DNA from: Betaproteobacteria bacterium
GTDB lineage: Bacteria; Pseudomonadota; Gammaproteobacteria; Burkholderiales; SG8-39
DNA length: 64,000 nt
Direction of reading: 5' to 3'
Assembly (NCBI GenBank): GCA_029883975.1
Contig: JAOUIL010000005.1
Span: 1 to 64,000 of the forward strand
Both the position numbers and the translations under genes were made by a program. The notes under the pieces are model-generated. The model was not told the DNA's origin. It worked only from the letters and a program-made list of their open reading frames with translations, and searched no databases. Each line of letters opens with the position of its first letter. Positions within the stretch are counted from its first letter, which is position 1. Shown here piece after piece: positions 48,562 through 64,000 of the stretch.

Positions 48562-50195
48562 CGCGGGTAGGCCGGCTCGTACATCTGCGAGCGGATGTAA
48601 GCGAGCACGTTCGCCGGCTTGCGCCGCGCGGTGAGACGGCGCGCGTAGGCCACGCCGGCCACGGCGGCCGCGATGTGCGCCGAGACGGGTCGGATGCGCG
48701 CAAGCGCCGGATACAGGCTGCCCTGCTCGAGGTCTGCTTTGGTCGTCTGGCGCGCGAGCGCGCGCGCCGCGGCGAGGAACATCTCGTCGGTGACGTGCCG
48801 GGCTCGGCTGGCAATCACGCCCAGGCCGACGCCGGGAAAGATGTAGGAGTTGTTGCCCTGGCGCGGCACGAACACGCGGCCCTCGAGCGTCACCGGGTCG
48901 AACGGGCTGCCGCAGGCAAAGAGCGCGCGGCCGCCCGACCAGCGGTACGCCTGCTCGGCGGTGCATTCCGACTTCGAGGTGGGATTCGACAGCGCGAACA
49001 CGATCGGCCGCGGGTGGTGGCGCGCCATCGCCTCGACGACAGCCTGGGTGAAGGTGCCGCCGACTGCCGCCACGCCGATGATCGCGGTGGGCTTGAGTGC
49101 CTCCACCGCGGCGGCGAAGTCGGCGACGCCAGCGTGCTCGTGCGCATAAGGCCGCTTGTGACCGGCCAGATCGGCACGGCCCGCGACCACCAGGCCGCGC
49201 GAGTCGAACAGCCAGCAGCGGCGTCGCGCCTCGCTTGCGGCCAGGCCGTCCTCCGCGAGCGCGGCCACCACCAGGTCGCAGATCCCGGTCGCCGCCTCGC
49301 CCGCGCCGAGGCACAGGATGCGCTGCTCGCCGAGCGCGCCGCCCGTGACGCGCAGCGCGGACATCAGGCCGGCCAGCACCACCGACGCGGTGCCCTGGAT
49401 GTCGTCGTTGAAGGTGCAGATGCGCTCGCGGTACCGTTGCAGCAGGCGGAAGGCGTTGGTGTTGGCGAAATCCTCGAACTGGATCAGCGCGCCCGGGAAC
49501 ACCTTCTGCACCGCCATGACGAATTCCTCGACCAGCGCATCGTAGCGCGCGCCGCGCAGGCGCTTCTGCCGCAGGCCGATGTAGAACGGGTCCTTGCGCA
49601 AGGCCTCGTTGTCCGTGCCGACGTCGAGCACCACGGGCAGGCAGCGCCGCGGATGCACCCCGGCGCAGCCGGTATAGAGGGAAAGCTTGCCCACCGGGAT
49701 GCCCATGCCGTTCGCGCCCAGGTCGCCCAGGCCGAGGATGCGCTCGCCGTCGGTGACCACGATGATGCCGATGTCGCGGTGCGGCCAGTTGCCGAGCACC
49801 CTGGCGATGCGGCCGCGGTCGTTGGCGCCGATGAACAGGCCGCGCGGCCGCTGGAAGATGTTGCCGAACTCCTGGCAGGCGAGGCCGACGGTCGGCGTGT
49901 AGATGAGCGGCATGATCTCGTCGGGGTGCTCGCCGACGACGCGGAAGAACAGCGCCTCGTTGCGGTCGTGCAGCGCGTTGAGGTCGATGAACTTCTCCAG
50001 CGGGCTCGGCAGGCCGCGCAGGTGCGCGAGGCTGCGCTGCATCTGCTCCTGCTGCGTATGCACGTGCGCCGGCAGCAGCCCGCGCAGGCCGAGCCGGTCG
50101 CGCTCGCGCTGCGTGAAGGCTGTGCCCTTGTTGTAGAGCGGGTCGCGCAGCAGCGCGATGCCGCGTCGGCCGGCCGGCAGCGAGGCTTTCTTCAT
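48552..50195 (-). CDS. maeA: NAD-type malic enzyme
   Basis: LLRDPLYNKGTAFTQRERDRLGLRGLLP; MPLIYTPTVGLACQEFG; FNDDIQGTASVVLAGL. Confidence 0.95.
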   Translation of the reverse strand: MKKASLPAGRRGIALLRDPLYNKGTAFTQRERDRLGLRGLLPAHVHTQQEQMQRSLAHLRGLPSPLEKFIDLNALHDRNEALFFRVVGEHPDEIMPLIYTPTVGLACQEFGNIFQRPRGLFIGANDRGRIARVLGNWPHRDIGIIVVTDGERILGLGDLGANGMGIPVGKLSLYTGCAGVHPRRCLPVVLDVGTDNEALRKDPFYIGLRQKRLRGARYDALVEEFVMAVQKVFPGALIQFEDFANTNAFRLLQRYRERICTFNDDIQGTASVVLAGLMSALRVTGGALGEQRILCLGAGEAATGICDLVVAALAEDGLAASEARRRCWLFDSRGLVVAGRADLAGHKRPYAHEHAGVADFAAAVEALKPTAIIGVAAVGGTFTQAVVEAMARHHPRPIVFALSNPTSKSECTAEQAYRWSGGRALFACGSPFDPVTLEGRVFVPRQGNNSYIFPGVGLGVIASRARHVTDEMFLAAARALARQTTKADLEQGSLYPALARIRPVSAHIAAAVAGVAYARRLTARRKPANVLAYIRSQMYEPAYPRYA

Positions 50196-51817
50196 ATCTC
50201 CTCGGGGATCATCTTGATCGCGCCGCAGGGGCATTCGGCGACGCAGATGCCGCAGCCCTTGCAATAGTCGTAGTTGAACTGGAAGCGCTTGCCCGGTCCC
50301 AGCTTGATCACGGCGTTGTCCGGGCACACGCCGTAGCAGTTGTCGCACTCGAAGCAGTTGCCGCAGGACAGGCAGCGGCGCGCCTCATACAGCGCGTTGG
50401 TCTCGTCCAGGCCGTTCACCACCTCGTCGAAGGTGGATTGCCGCCGCACGACGTCGAGCACCGGGCGCACCGTCTTCGGCGCGTCCGCGTAGTACCAGGG
50501 GTTGAGCCGCTCGAAGGTCGCCGGCTCGTGCCTGGGCGGCGGGGCGTAGCGCGCGCCGCGCAGCCAGGCGTCGATGTGGCGCGCCGCCTTCTTGCCGTGG
50601 CCGACGGCCACGGTGACCGTGCGCTCGGCGGGCACCATGTCGCCGCCGGCGAAGATCCCCGCGCTGCCGGTCATCATGTCAGGGCCGACACGCACCACGC
50701 CGTCTTTCACCTCCAGCCCCGGCACGCCGTCAATCAGGGAAAGGTCGACGTCCTGGCCGAGCGCGAGCACCACCGAGTCGGCGGCGAGCGTCTCGAACTC
50801 GCCCGTCGGCTGCGGGCTGCCGTCGGCATCGAGCACCATCTTCTCCACCGTGATCGAGGACGCGGCGGCCTGCCTGATGGTCGAGAGCCACCTGATCAGC
50901 ACGCCTTCCTGCAGCGCTTCCTCGACCTCGAAGTCGTGCGCGGGCATCTTCTCGCGCGTGCGCCGGTAGACGATGATCGCTTCCTCGGCGCCGAGGCGCT
51001 TGGCGGTGCGCGCCACGTCGATCGCGGTGTTGCCCCCGCCGTACACCACCACGCGGCGACCGAGCAGCGGCTTGTCGGCGCCCTCCATCGAGCGCAGCAC
51101 CGACAGCGCATCGAGGATCTTCGCCGCGCTGCCGGCGGGGATGTAGGCGCGCTTGGCGATGTGCGCGCCGACCGCGAGGAATGCGGCGTCGAACGCGCCC
51201 GCGCGCATCGTCTCGCGGATGTCCGAGACCTTGGCGTTGAGCCGCAGCTCGACGCCGAGGCCGACAATGCGCCGCACCTCGGCTTCGAGCACCTCGCGCG
51301 GCAGGCGGTACTTCGGGATGCCGAAGCGCATCATGCCGCCGGCCACCGGGCCCGCCTCGTGGATGGACACCGCGTGGCCGAGGCGGGCGAGATGGTAGGC
51401 GGCCGACAGGCCGGAGGGGCCGGCGCCGACCACCAGCACGCGCTTGCCCGATGCCGGGGCCGGCGCGGTGAGTCGCCAGCCGTGGCGGATCGCCTCGTCG
51501 CCGAGGAAGCGCTCGACCGAGTTGATGCCCACAGCGGCATCGAGGTGCGCGCGGTTGCACGAGGTCTCGCACGGGTGGTAGCAGACGCGCCCCATGACCG
51601 CGGGCAGCGGGTTGTCCTGCGTGAGCAGCCGCCAGGCCGCCTCGTAGTCCCCCGATTCGGCGTGATACAGCCAGCCCTGGATGTTCTCGCCGGCGGGGCA
51701 GGCGTGGTTGCATGGCGGCAGCCGGTCGACGTACACGGGGCGCGAGGTGCGCCAGGTGCCGGTGTGGTTGGCGAGGCTCGAGCCGGGATCGAGCGTGATG
51801 GCGAAAGGCTTGCGCAT
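50192..51817 (-). CDS. FAD/NAD(P)-dependent oxidoreductase (GltD-like) with C-terminal 2x[4Fe-4S] ferredoxin domain; KOR-associated subunit
   Basis: PPCNHACPAGENIQGWLYHAESGDYEAAW; VLVVGAGPSGLSAAYHLARLGH; CLSCGNCFECDNCYGVCPDNAV...DYCKGCGICVAECPCGAIKM. Confidence 0.92.
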   Translation of the reverse strand: MRKPFAITLDPGSSLANHTGTWRTSRPVYVDRLPPCNHACPAGENIQGWLYHAESGDYEAAWRLLTQDNPLPAVMGRVCYHPCETSCNRAHLDAAVGINSVERFLGDEAIRHGWRLTAPAPASGKRVLVVGAGPSGLSAAYHLARLGHAVSIHEAGPVAGGMMRFGIPKYRLPREVLEAEVRRIVGLGVELRLNAKVSDIRETMRAGAFDAAFLAVGAHIAKRAYIPAGSAAKILDALSVLRSMEGADKPLLGRRVVVYGGGNTAIDVARTAKRLGAEEAIIVYRRTREKMPAHDFEVEEALQEGVLIRWLSTIRQAAASSITVEKMVLDADGSPQPTGEFETLAADSVVLALGQDVDLSLIDGVPGLEVKDGVVRVGPDMMTGSAGIFAGGDMVPAERTVTVAVGHGKKAARHIDAWLRGARYAPPPRHEPATFERLNPWYYADAPKTVRPVLDVVRRQSTFDEVVNGLDETNALYEARRCLSCGNCFECDNCYGVCPDNAVIKLGPGKRFQFNYDYCKGCGICVAECPCGAIKMIPEEI

Positions 51818-51820
51818 CGT

Positions 51821-52813
51821 TCAGCCGTCCACGAGCCCGTAGCGCCGGATGTTGCGGTCGGCGATTTCCTGGATGCGCGCGATCAGGTCGGCGCGCGGCG
51901 CCTTGCCGAACAGGTGCGCGAAGCGCTTCTGCGGCCTCAGGTACTCCTCGACCGGCAGCTGCCGGCGGATCTTCGACACCGAAACCACCTCGCCGCGCTC
52001 GGCCTCGAACACCGGGAACACCCCGGTTTCCTTCGCCAGACGCGCGATGCGGATCGTGTCGTGCGCCGCGTGCCCCCAGCCCAGCGGGCAGGGCACGAAG
52101 ATGTGCAGGTAGCGCGCGCCGCGGAACTCCATCGCGCGCCGCACCTTGGCCTCCAGGTCGCGCAGCTCGGCGACGGTCGCCGTCGCCACGTACGGGATGC
52201 CGTGCGCCATGGCGATCGCCGGCAGGTCCTTGCCTTGCCCGAACACGTTGCCCGGCGGCTCGCCGACCGCCATCGTCGTCGCCGTGCGCGCTGCCGCGGG
52301 CGTGGCCGAGGAGCGCTGCACGCCGGTGTTCATGTAGGCGCCGTTGTCGTAGCACAGGTAGAGCACGTCGTCGTTGCGCTCGAACATGCCCGACAGGCAG
52401 CCGAAGCCGATGTCGGTGGTGCCGCCGTCGCCGCCCTGCGCGACGACGCGAATGTCGCTGCGGCCCTTGACGCGCATCGCGGCAGCGATGCCGGTGGCCA
52501 CCGCGGCGGTGTTGCCGAACAGCGAGTGTATCCACGGCACCTGCCACGAGGTCTCCGGATAGGGAGTGGAAAACACCTCCAGGCAGCCGGTGGCATTGGC
52601 GGCGATCAGGCGCTTGCCGGTGGCTTCCATCGCGGCGTCGATCGCGTAGCGCGCGCCGAGCGCCTCGCCGCAGCCCTGGCAGGCGCGGTGCCCGGAGTTG
52701 ATCGAGTTGGTGCGCCGCATGTTCGCCTGCACCGAGCGCTCCTCGGCGGCCAGCAGGCGGTTGCCGACCGTGAAGGTGCCCGTCTGGTAGAACTTGACCG
52801 GCTGAAAGCTCAT
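51821..52813 (-). CDS. 2-oxoacid:acceptor oxidoreductase beta (TPP-binding) subunit
   Basis: SGHRACQGCGEALGARYAIDAAMEATGKRLIAANATGCLEVFSTPYPETSWQVPWIHSLFGNTAAVATGI. Confidence 0.92.
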   Translation of the reverse strand: MSFQPVKFYQTGTFTVGNRLLAAEERSVQANMRRTNSINSGHRACQGCGEALGARYAIDAAMEATGKRLIAANATGCLEVFSTPYPETSWQVPWIHSLFGNTAAVATGIAAAMRVKGRSDIRVVAQGGDGGTTDIGFGCLSGMFERNDDVLYLCYDNGAYMNTGVQRSSATPAAARTATTMAVGEPPGNVFGQGKDLPAIAMAHGIPYVATATVAELRDLEAKVRRAMEFRGARYLHIFVPCPLGWGHAAHDTIRIARLAKETGVFPVFEAERGEVVSVSKIRRQLPVEEYLRPQKRFAHLFGKAPRADLIARIQEIADRNIRRYGLVDG

Positions 52814-52829
52814 CGCGCGCGCCTTGCGT

Positions 52830-54080
52830 CTAGATGCGCGCGGCGACCACGCCGAGGTCGCGCAGCATGCCTTCGGCGATCGGGCCCGAGCGCCGCTGCT
52901 CGCGCTCGCGCGCAAGCGCGCGCTCGACCAGCGCGCCGTCGAGGTCGAGGAAGCTGAGCGGCTCGAGCGTGCCGGCGAGCGCGGCGGCGAACACGCGCGC
53001 CAGCGACGCGCGCGTGATGGAGCGCCCGCCGAGGCCGGCGATCACCGCGTGCACCGCATCCGCGCTGCCGCCGTACGACGTGCGCACGTTGGAGGTGACG
53101 ATGCCGCCCAGGCCCACCGCCAGGCTCTTCTCGATCACCACGACGCGCGTGGCGTGCGCCAGCGCCGCGCGCACCGCGGCGAGCGGCCAGGGCCGGAAGC
53201 AGGTGATGCCGAGCACGCCGATCTTCACGCCGTCGCGGCGCATCTCGTCGATCGTGTCCTTGATCGTGCCGAGCACCGAGCCCAGCGCGACGACGATCGT
53301 GTCGGCATCCTCGGTGCGGTAGCTGTGCAGCAGGCCGCCGCTGTCGCGCCCGAAGGCGCGCCGGAACTCGTCCGCCCAGCCCGGGATCAGCTCGAGCGCG
53401 CGCATCTGCTTGGCGTGCGCCAGGTAGCGCACCTCCATGAAGGCCTCGGGGCCGACCATCGCGCCGATCGACACCGGCTCGGCGGGATCGAGCACCTGCC
53501 GTGGCTCGAACGGCGGCAGCCAGGCGTCCACCTGTTCCTGCGTCGGCAGGTCCACGCGCTCGTAGGCGTGCGTGAGGATGAAGCCGTCCATGCATACCAT
53601 CACCGGCAGCGACAGCTCCTCGCCGAGGCGGAACGCCTGGATGTGCAGGTCGAGGGCCTCCTGGTTGTTCTCCGCGAACAGCTGGATCCAGCCGCAGTCG
53701 CGCTGGCTCATGGCGTCGGTGTGGTCATTCCAGATGTTGATCGGCGCGCCGATCGCGCGGTTGGCGACCGTCATCACGATCGGCAACCCCAGGCCGGAGG
53801 CGTTGAATACCGCCTCGGCCATGTACAGCAGCCCCTGGCTCGCGGTGGCGGTGTAGGCGCGCGCCCCGGCGGCCGCGGCCCCGATCGCGACCGACATGGC
53901 GGCGAACTCGGACTCGACGTTGATGAACTCGCAGCGCGCGAGCGCGCCCGACTTCACCATCTCGCCCAGCCCTTCGACGATGTGCGTCTGCGGGGAGATC
54001 GGGTACGCGCAGATCACCTCCGGGCGGCACAGGGCGACGGCCTGCGCGACGGCTTGCGAGCCTTCAATCTGCTTGAGCAT
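52830..54080 (-). CDS. 2-oxoacid:acceptor oxidoreductase alpha subunit
   Basis: MLKQIEGSQAVAQAVALCRPEVICAYPISPQTHIVEGLGEMVKSG...TATASQGLLYMAEAVFNASGLGLPIVMTVANRAIG. Confidence 0.93.
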   Translation of the reverse strand: MLKQIEGSQAVAQAVALCRPEVICAYPISPQTHIVEGLGEMVKSGALARCEFINVESEFAAMSVAIGAAAAGARAYTATASQGLLYMAEAVFNASGLGLPIVMTVANRAIGAPINIWNDHTDAMSQRDCGWIQLFAENNQEALDLHIQAFRLGEELSLPVMVCMDGFILTHAYERVDLPTQEQVDAWLPPFEPRQVLDPAEPVSIGAMVGPEAFMEVRYLAHAKQMRALELIPGWADEFRRAFGRDSGGLLHSYRTEDADTIVVALGSVLGTIKDTIDEMRRDGVKIGVLGITCFRPWPLAAVRAALAHATRVVVIEKSLAVGLGGIVTSNVRTSYGGSADAVHAVIAGLGGRSITRASLARVFAAALAGTLEPLSFLDLDGALVERALAREREQRRSGPIAEGMLRDLGVVAARI

Positions 54081-54654
54081 GGCTGGCCTCGCGCATTTCG
54101 TTGCGCACGTATTCGTAGGCGGCACGCGCGGCCGCCACGTTGCCCTCGGCAACGTCGCCCCCGAACTTCTCGCGGACTGCCGCCGCCACCGAATCGAGCG
54201 AGATGCGGCCCGACACCGCGGCGAATCCCCCCAGCAGCGCGACGTTCGGCACGGGCCTGCCCACGTGCTGCAGCGCAAGCTCGGTCGCCGGCACGGTGCA
54301 CAGGCGCTCGGCGCGCAGCGTGCGCGCGAGCTCGCCCACGCCGATCGCCTCGAAGGTGCGCGAGGTGTTGATCAGCACATAGCCGTCGCGCGCCAGGCCG
54401 CCGAACACGTCAACCTGGTGCAGCAGCGTCGGGTCCTGGATGATCAGGGCGTCGGGCTCGCGCACCGGCTCGCGCAGGCGGATCTCCTTGTCGTCGATGC
54501 GGCAGAAGGCCACTACCGGCGCGCCGGTGCGCTCGGAGCCGAAGCTGGGAAAGGCCTGCGCGTGCCGGCCCTCGAGGAACGCGGCGATGGAGAGCATCTC
54601 CGCCGCCGTCACGACACCCTGTCCGCCGCGGCCGTGGATGCGCACCTGGAACAT
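54064..54654 (-). CDS. 2-oxoacid:acceptor oxidoreductase gamma subunit
   Basis: MFQVRIHGRGGQGVVTAAEMLSIAAFLEGRHAQAFPSFGSERTGAPVVAFCRI. Confidence 0.94.
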   Translation of the reverse strand: MFQVRIHGRGGQGVVTAAEMLSIAAFLEGRHAQAFPSFGSERTGAPVVAFCRIDDKEIRLREPVREPDALIIQDPTLLHQVDVFGGLARDGYVLINTSRTFEAIGVGELARTLRAERLCTVPATELALQHVGRPVPNVALLGGFAAVSGRISLDSVAAAVREKFGGDVAEGNVAAARAAYEYVRNEMREASHAQAD

Positions 54655-54687
54655 GGGGGGATTCTGGCGAAACCGGCGGGACGTCCG

Positions 54688-54701
54688 TTGACATGCATCA
54701 A
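54688..54701. promoter_or_regulatory. FNR/CRP-family box between 2-oxoacid oxidoreductase operon and DUF2237 gene
   Basis: TTGACATGCATCAA (TTGAC-N4-ATCAA). Confidence 0.55.
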
Positions 54702-54758
54702 ATCGGCGCGTGCGCAGGCCGCAGGAGGGGGATTCGGCTATATTGCGGCGCACAGACG

Positions 54759-55130
54759 ATGAGCGAGGAAAAGAACGTCCTCGGCGGCGCGCTGATGGCC
54801 TGCAGCTACGCGCCGCTCACCGGGTACTTCCGCGACGGCAGCTGCGCCACGCACGGCGAGCAGGGCGTGGCGCACCTGGTGTGCGTCCGCGCGACGCGCG
54901 AATTCCTCGAGTTCAGCGCGGCGCGCGGCAACGATCTCGTCACGCCGCGCCCCGAGTTGCGCTTCCGCGGCCTGGCGCCCGGGGACCGCTGGTGCCTGCA
55001 CGTGCTGCGCTGGGTGGAGGCTTGGCGCGCTGGCGCCGCGCCGCAGGTGGTGCTCGAGGCGACGCACGAGGGCGTGCTGGATTACGTGCCGCTCGCCGCG
55101 CTCAAGGAGCGCGCGCTCGACCTGAACTAG
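54759..55130 (+). CDS. DUF2237 family protein
   Basis: KNVLGGALMACSYAPLTGYFRDGSCATHGEQGVAHLVCVRATREFLEFSAARGNDLVTPRPELRFRGLAPGDRWCLH. Confidence 0.88.
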   Translation: MSEEKNVLGGALMACSYAPLTGYFRDGSCATHGEQGVAHLVCVRATREFLEFSAARGNDLVTPRPELRFRGLAPGDRWCLHVLRWVEAWRAGAAPQVVLEATHEGVLDYVPLAALKERALDLN

Positions 55131-55864
55131 GCGCGCCCGCCGGCGAGCGCAGCGAGGCCGGCGCGATCCAGGATCGCAATCTGCGGGCCCGCGACTTCCA
55201 CCAGGCCGCGCGACGTGAGCTCGCGCAGCAGGCGCGACATGGTCTCCTTCTTGACGCCCAGGCGCGCCGCGATGGTCGATTTCGTGGCCGGCAGGCGCAC
55301 CACCCAGGCGCCGTTGCCGTCGGCCTGCGCCGCGCGCGAGTCCAGGTAGCAGGCGAGGCGCTGCAGGCTGCTGTGCTGCGCGCTCGCCTCGAGCTCGCCC
55401 ACCAGCAGCAGCACGCGCTCGGCAAGCGTGCGCGCCAGCGCGACGGCGAAGCCGGCATTGCGCCCCATGAGCTGCCGCACGGGCAGCGAGGGAATCGTCG
55501 CCACCACGCAGTTCGACAATGCGACGAGGTCGACCGGGCAATCGCGCTCGAGCAGCACGGCGGCAAACCCGAAGGAATCGCCCGCTTCGAGGAGGCGCGC
55601 GATCCTCTCCTCGCCGTTGTTGCTCCGCAGCGTCAGTTTTGCCGAGCCTTCGACGAGCGCGACCACTCCGGGCAGGGGCTCTCCGCGCGCGGCGATCGTC
55701 GCGCCACGGCGATACACGCGCAACTGCGAATAGCCCGCAAGTTCATCGACTTCGGGGCGCGCCAGCTGATCGAATGCCGGCAGCCGCGTGATCAGGGCCT
55801 CGAGGATCCTGCGGTCCCTGAAGGGGCGAATGGCAGTCGGGGCGCTCCGGATGCCTTGTTGCAT
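55127..55864 (-). CDS. Crp/Fnr-family transcriptional regulator without an evident N-terminal Fe-S Cys cluster
   Basis: cNMP-like sensor YSQLRVYRRGATIAARGEPLPGVVALVEGSAKL; HTH TKSTIAARLGVKKETMSRLLRELTSRGLVEV; alternative upstream start at 55906. Confidence 0.9.
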   Translation of the reverse strand: MQQGIRSAPTAIRPFRDRRILEALITRLPAFDQLARPEVDELAGYSQLRVYRRGATIAARGEPLPGVVALVEGSAKLTLRSNNGEERIARLLEAGDSFGFAAVLLERDCPVDLVALSNCVVATIPSLPVRQLMGRNAGFAVALARTLAERVLLLVGELEASAQHSSLQRLACYLDSRAAQADGNGAWVVRLPATKSTIAARLGVKKETMSRLLRELTSRGLVEVAGPQIAILDRAGLAALAGGRA

Positions 55865-55897
55865 TGCATCATGCTGACACTGTGACGGTGGAGGATG

Positions 55898-55911
55898 TTG
55901 ACGCATGTCAA
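55898..55911. promoter_or_regulatory. FNR-like box 1 in divergent regulator/cytochrome intergenic region
   Basis: TTGACGCATGTCAA. Confidence 0.55.
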
Positions 55912-55928
55912 CCGGGACCCCAGAATCG

Positions 55929-55960
55929 GGCGCGCGTTTGATCCAGGTCAAACGCGCGCC
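55929..55960. promoter_or_regulatory. FNR-like box 2 embedded in a larger perfect inverted repeat
   Basis: GGCGCGCGTTTGA-TCCAGG-TCAAACGCGCGCC (13-bp perfect arms) containing TTGATCCAGGTCAA (55938-55951). Confidence 0.65.
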
Positions 55961-56059
55961 GGCGCGTTCGAAGAATCGCGCGGGGCGCACCTTGCCATGA
56001 CCCCGCGCGCCGGGGTAGCGTTCGGCAACAAGAGCAAGACCACAGAGGAGGCCGTACCG

Positions 56060-56401
56060 ATGAAGCGCTCCGTTTCCGTCTGGTCGATGGCAGGCGTCCT
56101 GGTTGCGGGCATCTGGTCAGCGCAGGCGCTGGCGGCCCCGGACGTCGCGAAGGCCGAGTCGCTGATGAAGAAGAGCGGCTGCAACAAGTGCCATGCGCTG
56201 TCGGCCAAGAAGGAAGGCCCGCCCTACAAGGAGACCGCCGCCAAGTACAAGGGCAAGGCGGACGCCGAGCAGAAGCTCTTCACGCACCTCACGACCAATC
56301 CGAAGGTCAAGGTCGAGGGCAAGGAAGAGTTGCACGATTCGCTGAAGACCAAGAACGACGCGGACGTCAAGAACGTCGTCGAGTACATCCTGACGCGCTG
56401 A
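56060..56401 (+). CDS. monoheme class I c-type cytochrome (MtoD-like position)
   Basis: signal peptide; one CxxCH (MKKSGCNKCHALS); 113 aa. Confidence 0.9.
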   Translation: MKRSVSVWSMAGVLVAGIWSAQALAAPDVAKAESLMKKSGCNKCHALSAKKEGPPYKETAAKYKGKADAEQKLFTHLTTNPKVKVEGKEELHDSLKTKNDADVKNVVEYILTR

Positions 56402-56408
56402 CCAGGAC

Positions 56409-57008
56409 ATGCTCGGGCGCTTCTGGGGCTACCTCACCACCAAGTGCCAGACGTGCTCGCGCATCCGGCTGGGCATCGGCGTCGCGGTGGTGGCGGTGCT
56501 GGTGGCGGGCGTGCTGATGGCGGCCGGCGCCGCGGGCCTCGCCTGGACCAACACCGAGGGCTTCTGCATCGGCTGCCACGAGATGCGCGACAACGTGTAC
56601 GCCGAGTTCAAGGACACGATCCACGACAAGAACCGCTCGGGCGTGCGCGCCGTGTGCTCCGATTGCCACGTGCCGCGCGAGCCGGTGGCGATGCTCAAGC
56701 GCAAGATGGCCGCGACCTTCGAGATCTGGGGAAAGATCACCGGCGTGATCGACACCAAGGAGAAGTTCGAGAAGATGCGCCACACGATGGCGGTGCGCGA
56801 GTGGACGCGCATGAAGAAGAACAACTCGCAGGAGTGCCGCAACTGCCATCACTTCGAGGCGATGGATCCGGACAAGCAGACAGAGAAGGCCAAGGCGCGG
56901 CACGAGAAGGCGCGCGCCGAGGGCGTCACGTGCATCGACTGCCATTTCGGCATCGCGCACAACGAGCCCGACGGGCCGGGGCCGCAGGAACTGAAGCTGG
57001 CGAAGTAA
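56409..57008 (+). CDS. NapC/NirT/CymA-family tetraheme membrane c-type cytochrome (quinol dehydrogenase)
   Basis: N-terminal TM; four CxxCH: CIGCH, CSDCH, CRNCH, CIDCH; GFCIGCHEMRDNVYAEFKDTIH. Confidence 0.93.
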   Translation: MLGRFWGYLTTKCQTCSRIRLGIGVAVVAVLVAGVLMAAGAAGLAWTNTEGFCIGCHEMRDNVYAEFKDTIHDKNRSGVRAVCSDCHVPREPVAMLKRKMAATFEIWGKITGVIDTKEKFEKMRHTMAVREWTRMKKNNSQECRNCHHFEAMDPDKQTEKAKARHEKARAEGVTCIDCHFGIAHNEPDGPGPQELKLAK

Positions 57009-57028
57009 ACGGAGAGGGGAGTCGCACG

Positions 57029-57967
57029 ATGAAAAGATCGATCCTGGCGTACGCAGTGGTGCTGGTCGGATTGATGATTGCGCTCCCTGCGCAGGCGCAG
57101 GCGCCGCGCACCGACAAGGTGCTGAAGGGCGACGCGGCGTGCACGCGCTGCCACGACGAGACCGAGGAGTATCCGGTGCTCGCCATCGGCAAGACCAAGC
57201 ACGGCACCGTCGCCGACGGGCGCACGCCCACCTGCACGAACTGCCACGGCGAGAGCGATACGCACGCCAACAAGCCGGCGGATGCCAAGGAGCGGCCGAA
57301 GCCGGAGCGCATGTTCGGCAAGGCCTCGACGACGCCGATCGAGGCGCGCACCGGCGCCTGCCTTACCTGCCACCAGGGCGGCAAGCGCATTCACTGGCAG
57401 CGCAGCGAGCACGCGGCCGCCGATGTGACCTGCGCTTCCTGCCACCAGGTCCATGCGGCGCACGACGCGGCGCGCGACAAGGTAACGCAGACCGAGGTGT
57501 GCTTCACCTGCCACAAGGAGCAGCGCGCGCAGCTGCGCTGGCCGTCGCGCCACCCGATCGCCGAAGGCAAGGTGGCCTGCTCCGATTGCCACAACCCGCA
57601 CGGCTCGGCCGGCCCGAAGAACCTGGTGCGCGACACGGTGAACGACACCTGCTTCGCCTGCCACATGGAGAAGCGCGGCCCGTTCGTGCGCTCGCACGAG
57701 CCGGTGGCGGAGGACTGCACCATCTGCCACAACCCGCACGGCAGCAGCACGCCGAGCCTGCTCAAGGTGCGCGCGCCGTTCCTGTGCCAGTCGTGCCACC
57801 AGCCTTCGTCGCACCACGCGACCGTGCCCGCGGACAACGCGGTCGGGGGCGCCAATCCGAGCACCGCGCAGGCCGTCATCATGGCGCGCGGGTGCCTGAA
57901 CTGCCACACGCAGATCCACGGCAGCAACAACGCGGCCGACGGCAGCGGCCGCGGGTTCCGTCGCTGA
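57029..57967 (+). CDS. periplasmic decaheme c-type cytochrome, MtrA/DmsE/MtoA/PioA family
   Basis: ten CxxCH motifs: CTRCH CTNCH CLTCH CASCH CFTCH CSDCH CFACH CTICH CQSCH CLNCH; signal peptide; 312 aa. Confidence 0.95.
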   Translation: MKRSILAYAVVLVGLMIALPAQAQAPRTDKVLKGDAACTRCHDETEEYPVLAIGKTKHGTVADGRTPTCTNCHGESDTHANKPADAKERPKPERMFGKASTTPIEARTGACLTCHQGGKRIHWQRSEHAAADVTCASCHQVHAAHDAARDKVTQTEVCFTCHKEQRAQLRWPSRHPIAEGKVACSDCHNPHGSAGPKNLVRDTVNDTCFACHMEKRGPFVRSHEPVAEDCTICHNPHGSSTPSLLKVRAPFLCQSCHQPSSHHATVPADNAVGGANPSTAQAVIMARGCLNCHTQIHGSNNAADGSGRGFRR

Positions 57968-57979
57968 ATGGGGGACAAG

Positions 57980-60067
57980 ATGAAACCGTGCCTTGCAAAG
58001 TCCTATCCGCTCTCCGCCCTCGCGGCCGCGCTGTGCTGCGCGTTCGGGCCCGCCCTCGCGCAGGATGCCGAGGACATCGCGAGCCTGACCAAGCCCTCGA
58101 GCAATCTCGAGATCGGCATCGGCTACGTATCCGACGACAACCAGCGCTTCGGCCAGTACACCGGCCTCACCGACAAGGGCGGCTACGGTCTCCTTGACAT
58201 CGACATCAACCGCCGCGACGCGCTGACTGGCACCTGGATGCGGCTCACGGGCCGCAACCTCGGCTTCGAGAACCGCGAGATCCGCTTCGAGCACGAGCGC
58301 CAGGGCGACTGGGGCTATTTCCTCGAGTTCAGCCAGACGCCGCGCTTCGATCCGTTCACGGTGACCACGCAGCTGACGGGCATCGGCACCACAGCGCAGG
58401 CCATCACCGGCAGCGCGACGCCGCGCGAATACCACCTCAAGACCGAGCGCGATGCGGTCACCGTGGGATTCGACAAGATGATTGCCAAGGGATTCGGGCT
58501 GCAGGTGAGCTTGCGCAACGAGGAAAAGACGGGTGAGCGCCTGTGGGGCCAGGGCACCTTCGGCACCTGGCGCTTCCTGACCGACCCGATCGACCAGACC
58601 AGCCGGCAACTGGAGGCGAAGCTAAACTACTCTACCGATGCCCTGCAGCTCTCCGGGGGCTACTATGGCACGACGTTCGAGAACAAGAACAACCGTCTCG
58701 ACGTCACCGGCCCGGCCTTGTTCGCGGGCTCGAACGAGATCGCGCTGCCGCCGGACAACGAGTCGCACCAGTTCTACCTCGCGGGCGGCTACAACTTCAG
58801 CAGGGACACGCGCGCCAACTTCAAGCTGTCCTACGGGCGCATCACGCAGAACGAGCTGTTCCCGAACACGCCTGTGGCCGGGGCGCCGACGAGCCTCGAC
58901 GGCCGCATCGACACGACGCTCCTCCAGGGCGGGCTGACGACGCGCGTGACGCCCAAGCTCTCGCTGCGCGCCGACCTGCGCTATGAGGATCGCGACGACA
59001 AGACGCCGATTTTCCGCTACTTCCCGAGCCAGAACACGGCGACCTCCACCAACGACGGCACGAACGAGGCGCGCGACATCCAGACCACTTCGGGCAAGAT
59101 CGAAGCCAAGTACCGGCTGCCGAACAACTTCAACCTGACCGGCGGGCTCGACTACGTCGAGAAGAAGCGCAACAGCCCGCCCGTGCGCTCCGTCGACTTC
59201 CGCGAGACGACCGACGAGACCGCGGTGCGCGCCGAGCTGCGCCGCACGATCTCGGAGACACTGAGCGGCGCGGTATCTGCCATCGTCAGCCAGCGCCGGG
59301 GCTCGGACTGGCTGCCCAACTTGAACAACGGGGGCACGGCCACCACGGGCGACCTGATCGCGCCGCTCCACCTCATTGATCGCGACCGCAACACGATGCG
59401 CTTGACGATGAACTGGATGCCGACGGAGCCGCTGTCGGTGGGTTTCCGCCTCGACTATTCGGACGACGACTACAAGGGACGCAACCTCGTGCCCAACGAC
59501 CTCGGGCCGCGTGAAGGCACTGCGCAGTTCCTGTCGCTGGACGCGGCCTATCGGTTCAGCGACACGGTACAGGGCACCGCCTGGGGCTCGCGCGGGGAGA
59601 ACACTTTCAAGAACGCGCTGTGCCAGTCGGCGGCCGTGCCTAACGCCAACACCTGCACTGCGAGCAACGCCAGCCCGGTCTGGGGCGCCGACCTGAAGAA
59701 CATCAGCGATGCGTTCGGGCTTGGCCTCGTCGCGAAGATCACGGCGAAGATCGACCTCACGGCGGACCTGGCCTACAGCAAGGTCAAGGACGAGATGGGC
59801 CTGCAGTCCATCGATCCGGCCAACTCCACCGCCGTCACCGTGCTGCCCGACACCAGCACCAAGATCACGACGCTCAAGCTCTCGGCGAAGTACGCGCTGC
59901 AGCGCAATTCCGCGGTCCGGCTGATCTATGTCTACGACCGGTACGAGACCGACGACTGGACCTGGGCGAACTGGAACTACTCGCCGGCCGACGGCGGCAC
60001 GACGGTACGGCAGGACCCGGACCAGAAGGTCAACTTCCTGGGCGTGTCCTACTACTACAGCTTCTAG
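57980..60067 (+). CDS. MtrB/PioB/MtoB-family decaheme-associated outer membrane beta-barrel
   Basis: signal peptide; alternating amphipathic strands (GYVSDDNQRFGQYTGLTDKGGYGLLDIDI...); C-terminal ...GVSYYYSF; immediately after decaheme gene; SD GGGGGA; alternative start 57968. Confidence 0.93.
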   Translation: MKPCLAKSYPLSALAAALCCAFGPALAQDAEDIASLTKPSSNLEIGIGYVSDDNQRFGQYTGLTDKGGYGLLDIDINRRDALTGTWMRLTGRNLGFENREIRFEHERQGDWGYFLEFSQTPRFDPFTVTTQLTGIGTTAQAITGSATPREYHLKTERDAVTVGFDKMIAKGFGLQVSLRNEEKTGERLWGQGTFGTWRFLTDPIDQTSRQLEAKLNYSTDALQLSGGYYGTTFENKNNRLDVTGPALFAGSNEIALPPDNESHQFYLAGGYNFSRDTRANFKLSYGRITQNELFPNTPVAGAPTSLDGRIDTTLLQGGLTTRVTPKLSLRADLRYEDRDDKTPIFRYFPSQNTATSTNDGTNEARDIQTTSGKIEAKYRLPNNFNLTGGLDYVEKKRNSPPVRSVDFRETTDETAVRAELRRTISETLSGAVSAIVSQRRGSDWLPNLNNGGTATTGDLIAPLHLIDRDRNTMRLTMNWMPTEPLSVGFRLDYSDDDYKGRNLVPNDLGPREGTAQFLSLDAAYRFSDTVQGTAWGSRGENTFKNALCQSAAVPNANTCTASNASPVWGADLKNISDAFGLGLVAKITAKIDLTADLAYSKVKDEMGLQSIDPANSTAVTVLPDTSTKITTLKLSAKYALQRNSAVRLIYVYDRYETDDWTWANWNYSPADGGTTVRQDPDQKVNFLGVSYYYSF

Positions 60068-60149: not shown

Positions 60150-60764
60150 GTGCTCGAAGCTTCCGACCTGCACTGCCGGCGCGGCACGCGCACCCTGTAC
60201 AGCGGGCTGTCCTTCGCGCTCGGCGCGGGCGAGCTGCTGCGCGTCGCGGGCGAGAACGGCAGCGGCAAGACCACGCTGCTCAAGATCCTCTGCGGGCTGC
60301 TCGACCCCGACGCGGGCGAGGTGCGCTGGCGCGGCGAGCCGATCCGGCGCCTGCGCGAGGAGTTCCACCGGCAGCTCGTGTTCCTCGGCCATGCGCCCGC
60401 CGTCAAGGACGAACTCACTGCGGCGGAGAACCTCGCCATCGCCTGCACGCTCGCCGGCCGGCCCGCGTCGATGCAGGACGTGCGCGAGGCGCTGGCGCGC
60501 TACGGCCTGCGCGAAGATTCCGCGCCGGTGCGGCGCCTGTCGCAGGGCCAGCGGCGCCGGGCGGCCCTTGCGCGCCTGATGCTGAGCGCCGATGCGCCGC
60601 TCTGGCTGCTCGACGAGCCGTTCGCCGCGCTCGACGCGGCTGCCGCGCGGCTCACCGAGGAGCTGATCGCGCGCCACGTGGCCGTGGGCGGCGCGGTGGC
60701 CTACACCACGCACCAGGAAGCGAACATCGACGCTGCCTCGCAGCGCGTGCTCGAGCTGGCATGA
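60150..60764 (+). CDS. ccmA: heme exporter ATP-binding protein CcmA
   Basis: LRVAGENGSGKTTLLKILCGLLDPDAGEVRWRG; LSQGQRRRAALARLML; GTG start; ccm order. Confidence 0.93.
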   Translation: MLEASDLHCRRGTRTLYSGLSFALGAGELLRVAGENGSGKTTLLKILCGLLDPDAGEVRWRGEPIRRLREEFHRQLVFLGHAPAVKDELTAAENLAIACTLAGRPASMQDVREALARYGLREDSAPVRRLSQGQRRRAALARLMLSADAPLWLLDEPFAALDAAAARLTEELIARHVAVGGAVAYTTHQEANIDAASQRVLELA

Positions 60765-61429
60765 TTGCGGCGGCGCGCACCATCCTCGCGCGCGACCTGC
60801 GCATCGTGCTGCGCCGGCCGGGCGACGCGGCCACGGCGCTGCTTTTCTTCGTCATCGTGGCGAGCCTGTTTCCGCTCGGCGTGGGCGCCGAGCCGAACCT
60901 GCTGCGCGCGGTGGCGCCGGGCGTCATCTGGGTGGCGGCGCTGCTCGCCTCGATGCTGTCGCTCGCGCGCCTGTTCGCCGCCGACCACGCCGACGGGACC
61001 CTGGAGCAGCTGCTGCTTGGCTCCGCGCCGCTCGGCGTCGTGTCCGCCGCCAAGGTGCTCGCCCACTGGCTGGTTTCCGGCCTGCCGCTGGTGGCCATCG
61101 CGCCGCTGATCGCCTTGCAGTACGATCTCGCGCCCGAGCTGTACGGCACGCTTGCCTTATCATTGCTGCTGGGCACGCCGGTGCTCGGCTTCATCGGCGC
61201 GATCGGCGCGGCGCTGACGCTGGGCTTGCGCGGCGCGGGCGTGCTGCTCGCGCTGCTGGTGCTGCCGCTGTACGTGCCGGTGCTGATCCTCGGCGCGGGC
61301 AGCGTCGAGATGGTATCCGCGGGCCTGGCGCCGGACGGCCAGCTGCTGCTGCTCGCGGCGCTGCTGGTGGTTTCTGCGGCCTTCGCCCCCTGGGCGATCG
61401 CCGCGGCCTTACGGATTTCTACGGAATGA
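60761..61429 (+). CDS. ccmB: heme exporter protein CcmB
   Basis: RDLRIVLRRPGDAATALLFFVIVASLFPLGVGAEPNLLRAVAPGVIWVAALLASMLSLARLF. Confidence 0.95.
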   Translation: MIAAARTILARDLRIVLRRPGDAATALLFFVIVASLFPLGVGAEPNLLRAVAPGVIWVAALLASMLSLARLFAADHADGTLEQLLLGSAPLGVVSAAKVLAHWLVSGLPLVAIAPLIALQYDLAPELYGTLALSLLLGTPVLGFIGAIGAALTLGLRGAGVLLALLVLPLYVPVLILGAGSVEMVSAGLAPDGQLLLLAALLVVSAAFAPWAIAAALRISTE

Positions 61430-62130
61430 GCACAGCCATCCGCTGGTTCTGGTTCGCCTCCCCGCAGACGTTCTATCCGCTCGCGGGCGCGATCGCGCGC
61501 GTGAGCGCGGTGGGCGCCGCGTTGCTCGTGGCCGCCGGGCTGTACGTCGGCTTCTTCGTCGCGCCGACGGACGCGCAGCAGGGAGAGGTCTACCGCGTGA
61601 TCTTCATTCACGTGCCCGCCGCCTGGATGTCCATGTTCCTATACGTGGTGATGGCGTTCTGGGCGGCCATCGGCCTCGCGTTCAACACGCGCCTGTCGGC
61701 CATGATGGCGAGCGCCATCGCGCCCACCGGGGCGCTGTTCACCTTCGTCGCGCTGTGGACCGGCGCGCTGTGGGGGCGGCCGACCTGGGGCACCTACTGG
61801 GTGTGGGACGCGCGGCTCACCTCGGAACTTATCCTGCTGTTCCTGTATCTAGGGTTCATGGCGCTGCAGGCGGCGATCGACGACGCGCGCCGCGCCGACC
61901 GGGCGGGCGCGGTGCTGGCGATCGTCGGCGTGGTCAACGTGCCGATCATCTACTATTCGGTGCAATGGTGGAACACGCTGCACCAGGGGGCCTCCGTCAG
62001 CCTGACGCGCGCGCCGAGCATGGCGAGCACCATGCTCGCCGGCATGCTGCTGATGGCGCTGGCGTTCTGGCTGTACAGCATCGCCGCGACGCTCGCGCGC
62101 GTGCGTTGCATCATCCGGGAGCGTGCATGA
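61426..62130 (+). CDS. ccmC: heme exporter/lyase component CcmC
   Basis: DAQQGEVYRVIFIHVPAAWMSMFLYVVMAFWA; LWGRPTWGTYWVWDARLTSELILLFLY. Confidence 0.96.
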   Translation: MSTAIRWFWFASPQTFYPLAGAIARVSAVGAALLVAAGLYVGFFVAPTDAQQGEVYRVIFIHVPAAWMSMFLYVVMAFWAAIGLAFNTRLSAMMASAIAPTGALFTFVALWTGALWGRPTWGTYWVWDARLTSELILLFLYLGFMALQAAIDDARRADRAGAVLAIVGVVNVPIIYYSVQWWNTLHQGASVSLTRAPSMASTMLAGMLLMALAFWLYSIAATLARVRCIIRERA

Positions 62131-62267
62131 GCTGGGGAAGCTGGGGCGAGTTCTGGGCGATGGGCGGCAAGGGCTTCTTCGTGTGGGGCTCGTACGCCGT
62201 GACCTTCGCCTGCCTGGCGCTCGAGGTCTATTTCCTGCGGAGACGATCCCGTGAAGCCAAGACATAA
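62127..62267 (+). CDS. ccmD: heme exporter protein CcmD
   Basis: 46 aa: [43 protein letters not shown]. Confidence 0.9.
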
Positions 62268-62700
62268 GCGCCTGGCGGCGATCGCCGTGGGCCTGGCCGC
62301 GCTCGGCGCGGCCGCCGCGCTGGTGCTGTCCGCGATGCGGGAGAACCTGGTGTTCTTCTTCACGCCCTCGCAGGTGGCGGCCAGCGAGGCGCCGCAGGGC
62401 CGCACCTTCCGCATCGGCGGCATGGTGGAGAAGGGCAGCGTGCAGCGCTCCGGCGTCGAGGTGCGCTTCCTGGTCACCGACACCGCGAAGGCAATCCCCG
62501 TGGTCTACAGCGGCGCGCTGCCCGACCTGTTCCGCGAGGGCAAGGGCGTGGTGGCGCAAGGGCAGCTCGGGCCGGACGGCGTGTTCCGCGCGCGCGAGGT
62601 GCTCGCCAAGCACGACGAGAACTACATGCCGCCCGAGGCGGCCGAAGCCGTGAAGCGCGCGCACGAGACAGCCGAGCGCGCGGCGAAGACGCTCAAATGA
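62251..62700 (+). CDS. ccmE: cytochrome c maturation heme chaperone CcmE
   Basis: [53 protein letters not shown] heme-attachment motif; GTG start. Confidence 0.96.
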
Positions 62701-64000
62701 TCCCCGAGCTCGGGCAACTCGCGCTGTCGCTCGCGCTCGTGGTGGCGCTCGTGCAGGGCATCCTGCCGCTCGCCGGCGCCGAGCGCGGCGACGCGGCCTG
62801 GATGGGCGTCGCGCGCCCCGCGGCGCACGTGCAGGCGCTGCTGGTCGCCTTCGCCTTCGGCTGCCTGGTGCATTCGTTCGTCGTCAACGATTTCAGCGTG
62901 CTGTACGTGGCGCAGAACTCCAATTCGGCGCTGCCGCTGCAGTACCGCATCGCCGGCGCCTGGGGCGGGCACGAGGGCTCGCTGCTGCTCTGGGTCCTGA
63001 TGCTCGGCCTGTGGATGTCGGCCGTGGCGCTGTTCAGCGCGCACCTGCCCGAGTCGATGACGGCGCGCGTGCTGGGCGTGCTCGGCCTGGTGAGCGCGGG
63101 CTTTCTCGCCTTCATGCTGTTCACCTCCAACCCCTTCGAGCGCCTCTTCCCGGTGCCCGCCGACGGCCGCGACCTGAACCCGTTGCTGCAGGACCCCGGC
63201 ATGGTCATCCACCCGCCGATGCTCTACATGGGCTACGTGGGCTTCTCGGTGGCCTACGCGTTCTCGGTGGCGGCGCTGCTCTCGGGCAGGCTGGACGCCG
63301 CGTGGGCGCGCTGGTCGCGGCCCTGGACGACGGTCGCCTGGGTGTTCCTCACGCTCGGCATCGCGCTCGGCAGCGCCTGGGCGTACTACGAGCTCGGCTG
63401 GGGCGGCTGGTGGTTCTGGGACCCGGTGGAGAACGCCTCCTTCATGCCCTGGCTGGTGGGCACAGCGCTCATCCACTCGCTCGCCGTCACCGAAAAGCGC
63501 GGCGCGTTCCGCAGCTGGACCGTGCTGCTCGCCATCGTCGCCTTCGGCCTGTCGCTGCTCGGCACGTTCCTGGTGCGCTCGGGCGTGCTCACCTCGGTGC
63601 ACGCCTTCGCCGTCGACCCGAAGCGCGGCGTGTTCATCCTCGCGCTCTTCGTCCTGACGATCGGCGGCGCGCTCGCGCTGTACGCCTGGCGCACCGCGCG
63701 CATCGGCCTGGGCGGCTCGTTCGCGCCGCTGTCGCGCGAGTCGCTGCTGCTCGCCAACAACGTGCTGCTCGCCGCGGCGGCCGGCTCGGTGATGCTCGGC
63801 ACGCTCTACCCGCTGGTGCTCGACGCGGTGGGCGGCGGCAAGATCTCGGTCGGGCCGCCGTACTTCGAGGCGACGTTCGCGCCGCTCATGGCGCCGGCGC
63901 TCTTCCTCATGGGCGTGGGGCCGCTCGCGCGCTGGAAGCGGGCGAGCCTGCCCGAGCTCGCGGTGCTGCTGCGCTGGGCGCTCGCCGCCAGCCTCGCCGT
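62697..64000 (+). CDS. ccmF: cytochrome c heme lyase subunit CcmF, 3' truncated by window edge
   Basis: [76 protein letters not shown] (WWD motif). Confidence 0.95.

Follow-up and report, generated by a model that had tools for sequence, protein, structure and literature searches.

Conduits that combine a decaheme cytochrome c with an outer-membrane barrel are known from several bacteria. Sideroxydans ES-1 harbors an Mto system together with a second porin–cytochrome cluster of the PCC3 type (PMC5566968), and entry 4XXL of the Protein Data Bank (PDB) is the MtoD of Sideroxydans lithotrophicus (PMC4412085). The photoferrotrophic homologue, pioABC of Rhodopseudomonas palustris, has two FixK boxes and is activated by FixK (PMC3050613), and a cytochrome c maturation (ccm) operon beside mtrCAB has been described in Group 4 betaproteobacteria (Baker et al. 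2022, PMC8805035). Here a related four-gene set, mtoD-cymA-mtoA-mtoB, is analysed in a 64,000-nucleotide stretch of a Betaproteobacteria bacterium (assembly GCA_029883975.1, contig JAOUIL010000005.1, positions 1 to 64,000), referred to as the window. Similar clusters are already known in betaproteobacteria, and the present set adds another member; it is probably an Mto-type extracellular electron conduit that mainly brings electrons inward. The contig is 85 kb long, and the window is its first 64 kb; the genome measures 3.44 Mb (175 contigs, 98% completeness) and was examined beyond the window by targeted searches and in selected stretches.

The mtoD-cymA-mtoA-mtoB operon

An earlier note, made from the letters of the window, had described four co-directional genes for 1-, 4- and 10-heme cytochromes and an MtrB-like barrel in the order monoheme-CymA-MtoA-MtoB, and had read them as the Mto component set. 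All four are present with these heme counts and in this order at 56060-60067. As they are separated by 7, 20 and 0 (or 12) nt, the four genes form one operon (Table 1).

The mtoD product matches PF00034 at 9.4e-8 and finds 4XXL as its top match among all PDB chains (1.4e-20). His92 is aligned to the distal His95 of Sideroxydans MtoD, and the sequence contains zero Met downstream of the CxxCH motif, so that the usual distal Met is missing. By these matches the protein is a true MtoD relative, predicted to be of the bis-His type. The tetraheme protein encoded next matches PF03264, the NapC/NirT family, at 3.8e-64 and possesses a CxxCHxM motif (M59) as well as K99 and E105. The spacing of 46 between M59 and E105 equals that of Met61 and Glu107 in Sideroxydans CymA (PMC10654088), and K99 corresponds by position to Lys101 of ImoA (PMC13390432); the predicted protein thus carries the quinone-site residues of Sideroxydans ImoA.

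A profile search of the decaheme and the barrel, which the earlier note had proposed as a check, places both above the curated cut-offs. The decaheme matches TIGR03508 at 1.3e-83 (280.5 bits, cut-off 192.2) and MtrA (6r2q_A) at 6.8e-67. Its alignment depicts exactly ten invariant or nearly invariant histidines outside the CxxCH motifs (H58, H79, H128, H142, H175, H191, H223, H237, H262 and H297), which is enough for ten bis-His hemes. The AlphaFold2 model of MtoA is poor (predicted local distance difference test score, pLDDT, 56) and was left unused. The barrel scores 1.3e-142 and 477 bits against PF11854 (cut-off 23) and 361 bits against TIGR03509 (cut-off 240). Its AlphaFold2 model (pLDDT 85) contains 26 long strands, and the top PDB match in Foldseek is MtrB (6r2q_B) with a template modelling (TM) score of 0.88 by target length at 22% identity, while the second-ranked match reaches a TM of only 0.44. 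The possibility, raised before, of a barrel lacking MtrB-family similarity is contradicted by this full-length MtrB-family protein. In sequence and model, MtoA and MtoB have the features of an MtrA-in-MtrB wire. By the profile and PDB matches, the family assignments of all four genes are strong homologies for which chance is excluded.

As had been claimed, an MtrC/OmcA-like protein is absent from the window, whose gene list contains no further multiheme open reading frame. Genome-wide, mtoB is the only PF11854 gene, and PF22113 matches only the 17-heme protein of a PCC3-type cluster. Membership of the Mto family (MtoD-CymA/ImoA-MtoA-MtoB) is well supported, every feature that can be tested on the sequence having been found.

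Table 1. Coordinates of the operon, its candidate regulatory elements and further gene clusters (window positions unless a contig is named)
Feature	Location	Strand	Description
mtoD	56060-56401	+	monoheme class I cytochrome c, 113 amino acids, Sec signal, 1 CxxCH
cymA/imoA-like	56409-57008	+	membrane-anchored NapC/NirT tetraheme quinol/quinone oxidoreductase, 199 amino acids, 4 CxxCH
mtoA	57029-57967	+	periplasmic/outer-membrane decaheme cytochrome c, 312 amino acids, 10 CxxCH
mtoB	57968-60067; likely start at in-frame ATG 57980	+	MtrB/PioB-family 26-strand outer-membrane barrel
Crp/Fnr-family regulator, divergent	55127-55990; likely start 55864 or 55906	-	PF00027 and PF13545
FNR/FixK-type palindrome TTGACGCATGTCAA	55898-55911		between regulator gene and mtoD
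FNR/FixK-type palindrome TTGATCCAGGTCAA	55938-55951		centre about 115 nt upstream of the mtoD ATG
Third FNR/FixK-type box TTGACATGCATCAA	54688-54701		34 nt upstream of ATG 54654
2-oxoacid:ferredoxin oxidoreductase operon	50192-54753	-
System I cytochrome c maturation genes	60150-63998	+	ccmA equivalog; ccmC/E/F by matches to ccm clusters in related genomes
ccmA	60150-60764	+	followed by ccmB
ccmC	61426-62130	+
ccmE	62251-62700	+
ccmF	from 62697	+
Form I RuBisCO/Calvin-cycle operon	contig C67, L267:5176-16974		divergent LysR regulator
PCC3-type porin-cytochrome cluster	G000 contig C87, L219:6473-13093	-	second candidate electron conduit

Phylogeny and proposed exchange of the AB pair

Phylogenetic analysis employed 192 distinct decahemes from genomes at genus-to-phylum level and 80 named loci. 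Reference MtrA rows were defined by a neighbouring MtrC (PF22113/PF22112), DmsE rows by an adjacent, Pfam-confirmed molybdopterin enzyme and the PioA-like reference by a frame of 555 amino acids (L231). A FastTree tree and an 88-row maximum-likelihood tree with a mixture model agree. In the latter the window decaheme lies within a 70-row MtoA side, which a split supported at 98/96 sets apart from 18 Shewanella/Vibrio MtrA, DmsE and PioA-like rows; the MtoA of ES-1 itself is outside the tree set, its nearest stand-in being genome G274, with an MtoD that shares 73% identity with 4XXL. Placement in a clade unrelated to extracellular electron transfer, which the earlier note had regarded as decisive against its reading, is not observed, the DmsE rows falling across that split. 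Within the MtoA side the decaheme belongs to a 54-row, mostly betaproteobacterial subclade (100/100).

The window decaheme has as its sister the decaheme of G581 (100/98), whose complete genome of 2.9 Mb comes from a different order than the window organism; a lake metagenome-assembled genome joins next (97/96). The MtoB tree likewise pairs the window with G581 (support 100), which at 68% identity for MtoA and 62-65% for MtoB provides the closest MtoAB relative (L239). MtoD and CymA, in turn, are nearest to the same-family genome G088 and other Burkholderiales-type genomes, and the same-genus genome G003 contains a different MtoAB copy (47%/45% identity). This mismatch between the other-order relationship of MtoAB and the own-family relationship of MtoD and CymA suggests that the AB pair was exchanged as a module. 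The outer-membrane wire may therefore be exchangeable as a unit, with a history that differs from those of MtoD and CymA. On plasmids, no close relative of the window mto copy was found.

In G581, mtoD and a nonaheme MtoC-like gene precede MtoAB at L239, and the genome also harbors an MtrC-like protein about 10 kb from this locus as well as two RuBisCO genes. Such a nonaheme gene, which adjoins mtoAB in many loci and is probably equivalent to MtoC as described before (PMC5566968), is absent from the window.

An MtrB-family barrel is found in 47 of the 98 sampled genomes of the uncultured betaproteobacterial family to which the window organism belongs, so minerals may be frequent partners of electron exchange in this family. 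A 16S gene was looked for in the window genome and not found; the organism is accordingly placed no more closely than as an uncultured family within the order of named betaproteobacteria. In other genera of this family (f1), for example at L156 of G021, MtrC-MtrC-MtrA-MtrB clusters take the place of Mto, so that the family has a mixture of conduit types. The RpoB of the window genome (contig C167, L139) shares a stretch at about residues 407-485 with G088 and the Mn-enrichment genome G499, and this stretch is unaligned in most other genomes searched. A public metagenome-assembled genome titled Bordetella parapertussis (L059/G484, CAMAXP010000007.1) seems to be identical to G088, and its name looks mislabelled.

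Candidate regulatory boxes and genome context

The earlier note, the core reading of which is supported, had overlooked the link to ccm, the regulator and its FNR-type boxes, the Calvin-cycle operon and the PCC3 cluster. The regulator gene divergent from mtoD encodes a Crp/Fnr-family protein with DNR (3dkw, 6.9e-18) among its top PDB matches; the recognition helix reads KKETMSR and an N-terminal Cys cluster is absent. The strict palindrome TTGAYNNNNRTCAA occurs at three exact sites in the 64-kb window, where 0.02 are expected, and at 53 sites in the genome, versus 2 for the reversed control. One of the genomic boxes is located 42 nt upstream of hemN. This gene is a classic target of the Crp/Fnr-type regulator family.

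In a comparison of 193 distinct mto/mtr clusters with 397 other gene starts, a site is found within 400 bp upstream in 32 and 17 cases, respectively (Fisher 1.5e-6), the box control regions being higher in GC (61% vs 54%) and the related sequences not independent of each other. Each of seven decoy palindromes occurs in 0 or 1 cluster, and neither the decoys nor altered spacings show enrichment. Most mto/mtr clusters have no strict box. With 34 rows positive, the tree requires no fewer than 26 changes of box state, which is incompatible with a single inherited event. Among the papers searched, none links mtoA to FNR control. It is a tentative proposal, on balance rather doubtful, that a low-oxygen regulon of the Crp/Fnr type (DNR/FixK-like) commonly includes the Mto clusters of betaproteobacteria other than Gallionellaceae, as is the case for pioABC in R. 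palustris; in this uncultured family the operon, PCC3 and the form I Calvin cycle would then serve Fe(II)-dependent CO2 fixation that is anaerobic or linked to nitrate, rather than the microaerophilic Fe(II) oxidation known for Mto. The boxes make the question of when Mto is used approachable at the promoter level.

Further boxes accompany other genes. The one at TTGACATGCATCAA precedes a 2-oxoacid:ferredoxin oxidoreductase gamma gene (PF01558), the first of an operon that continues with alpha, beta and a glutamate-synthase-small-subunit-like Fe-S protein and that is possibly co-regulated with mto. Another FNR-type box is situated downstream of ccm between the genes of a hemerythrin and a cysteine-rich Fe-S protein (L140:4171-6175; contig C106, 68171-70175), and an additional one between divergent UspA and Hsp20 genes at contig position 77113.

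Directly downstream of mtoB follow the ccm genes, which extend past the window end with the rest of ccmF, then ccmG, ccmH and ccmI (read in L140). As adjacency of ccm and mtr has already been published, this linkage is not new. Elsewhere in the genome, the Calvin-cycle operon of contig C67 is complete, with LysR, cbbL, cbbS, an AAA ATPase, a phosphatase, FBPase, PRK, FBA, transketolase and PGK. The cluster on contig C87 encodes a 24-heme and a 17-heme protein, a 798-residue protein with a barrel-like C-terminal half and an inner-membrane protein in which WX3HX13H occurs twice (WFALH-x13-H and WHVLH-x13-H) together with SGXXG (SGIVG). By its motifs the cluster corresponds to the published definition of PCC3, which besides an inner-membrane protein with two WX3HX13H and SGXXG names a barrel and large multiheme cytochromes of the periplasm and the cell exterior (PMC5566968). 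The Calvin-cycle operon and PCC3 favour an electron-uptaking lithoautotroph, as judged from gene content, and fall short of proof. One genome of this uncultured betaproteobacterial family hence combines a Calvin cycle with two conduits, a complete one of the Mto type and another of the PCC3 type.

Electron flow and comparison with described systems

Inward flow is considered the most likely direction because of the Calvin cycle, PCC3 and the lack of MtrC. Fe(II) or another extracellular donor would reduce MtoA at the cell surface, and electrons would travel along the MtoA hemes, threaded through MtoB, into the periplasm. There MtoD, as a putative soluble monoheme carrier, and/or CymA/ImoA, as the presumed quinone link, would transfer them either to a terminal acceptor or into the quinone pool, from which they could feed NADH formation by reverse transport and CO2 fixation by form I RuBisCO. 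The adjacent Crp/Fnr regulator, or a family relative, may activate the operon at low oxygen or with NO/nitrate via the two TTGA-N6-TCAA boxes. Both inward flow and low-oxygen use are what we infer from this gene content and promoter arrangement.

Several points weigh against this assignment. Published trees show no clean functional split between MtoA and MtrA (PMC10734462, PMC8805035), and the 54-row subclade of the window also includes clusters with an mtrC gene as well as heterotrophs, among them Zoogloea and Aromatoleum; consequently the present tree gives no direction either, in agreement with the caution of the earlier note that sequence does not reveal it. Moreover, ImoA is capable of quinol oxidation (PMC9600427, PMC13390432). 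In ES-1, PmcA interacted with MtoA or ImoA whereas MtoD did not (PMC13390432), and no PmcA-like gene was noticed in the window cluster, so that MtoD or another cytochrome would have to do this job. The predicted boxes, finally, could serve a Crp/Fnr protein other than the adjacent regulator.

Outward flow and two-way use are serious rivals to inward flow, even if either is rather unlikely. For outward flow, CymA would oxidise quinol, and MtoD and MtoA would pass the electrons to acceptors outside the cell, such as Fe(III) or humics, in anaerobic respiration. The FNR-type boxes suit anaerobic use, as does the 2-oxoacid:ferredoxin oxidoreductase operon close by, CymA has residues of the quinol-oxidase type, the mtrC-bearing and heterotrophic members of the subclade fit as well, and ImoA supports current production in Shewanella (PMC13390432). 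However, mtrC, usually needed for solid acceptors, is missing from the cluster and the genomic PF22113 match is of the PCC3 type only, PCC3 and the full set of Calvin-cycle genes indicate lithoautotrophy, and MtoD is a carrier known from an Fe(II) oxidiser. To the same low degree of probability, the conduit could work in both directions depending on conditions, with Fe(II) as the electron source when oxygen is low and a release of surplus electrons in carbon-rich anoxia. Mtr/Mto wires have been published as reversible (PMC10734462, PMC8805035), and the genome combines autotrophic genes with those of carbon-oxidising 2-oxoacid oxidoreductase and acetate-CoA ligase, but this explanation overlaps with inward flow and is hard to separate from it by sequence.

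It is very improbable that the cluster is a horizontally gained, unexpressed relic: although the nearest MtoAB is that of a genome from another order and the same-genus G003 has a different copy, the four frames are intact with a GC content at third codon positions of 0.87-0.96 where computed, the operon is tightly spaced and preceded by candidate regulatory boxes, and a full maturation operon adjoins it. Least credible of all is a DmsEF-like outlet, in which a molybdoenzyme at the cell surface would reduce DMSO, iodate or some other soluble acceptor, since, despite the naming of the NCBIfam decaheme family after DmsE, the cluster contains no molybdopterin oxidoreductase and the context-defined DmsE rows join Shewanella MtrA across the 98/96 split.

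Compared with DmsEFAB, the cluster lacks the molybdopterin subunit DmsA and the Fe-S subunit DmsB, and its decaheme is positioned outside the DmsE clade. With MtrCAB of Shewanella and Vibrio it shares MtrA and MtrB homologues, the barrel model superposing on MtrB, while MtrC is missing, the decaheme lies across the 98/96 split, and MtoD and CymA are additional members of the operon. PioABC of R. palustris is likewise a decaheme and barrel conduit, and two TTGA-N6-TCAA boxes are found in both systems; in contrast to the 555-residue PioA-like frame of L231, the window decaheme has 312 residues and no N-terminal extension, no HiPIP PioC is seen, and no additional small gene is located between the barrel and ccmA.

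The Mto system of ES-1, mtoD-mtoA-mtoB-cymA/imoA-pmcA, shares MtoD, MtoA, MtoB and the NapC/NirT tetraheme as well as the lack of mtrC. The window cluster differs in gene order and in having ccm directly downstream, no pmcA-like gene was noticed beside it, and its MtoA belongs to another subclade than the Gallionellales-type sequences. The Group 4 mtrCAB-ccmA-I clusters (PMC8805035) resemble the window in the adjoining ccm operon and, in many members, in the presence of mtoD, whereas the window is without mtrC and no frdABCD is seen beside its cluster. The gene order of the window recurs in the betaproteobacterial clusters L059/L142, L061, L067, L072, L073, L086 and L143, and in three of them (L073, L086 and, from the same family, L143) it continues downstream into ccm. 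Their MtoA and MtoB are 55-67% and 29-48% identical to those of the window, respectively, and the G581 copy is closer than any of them.

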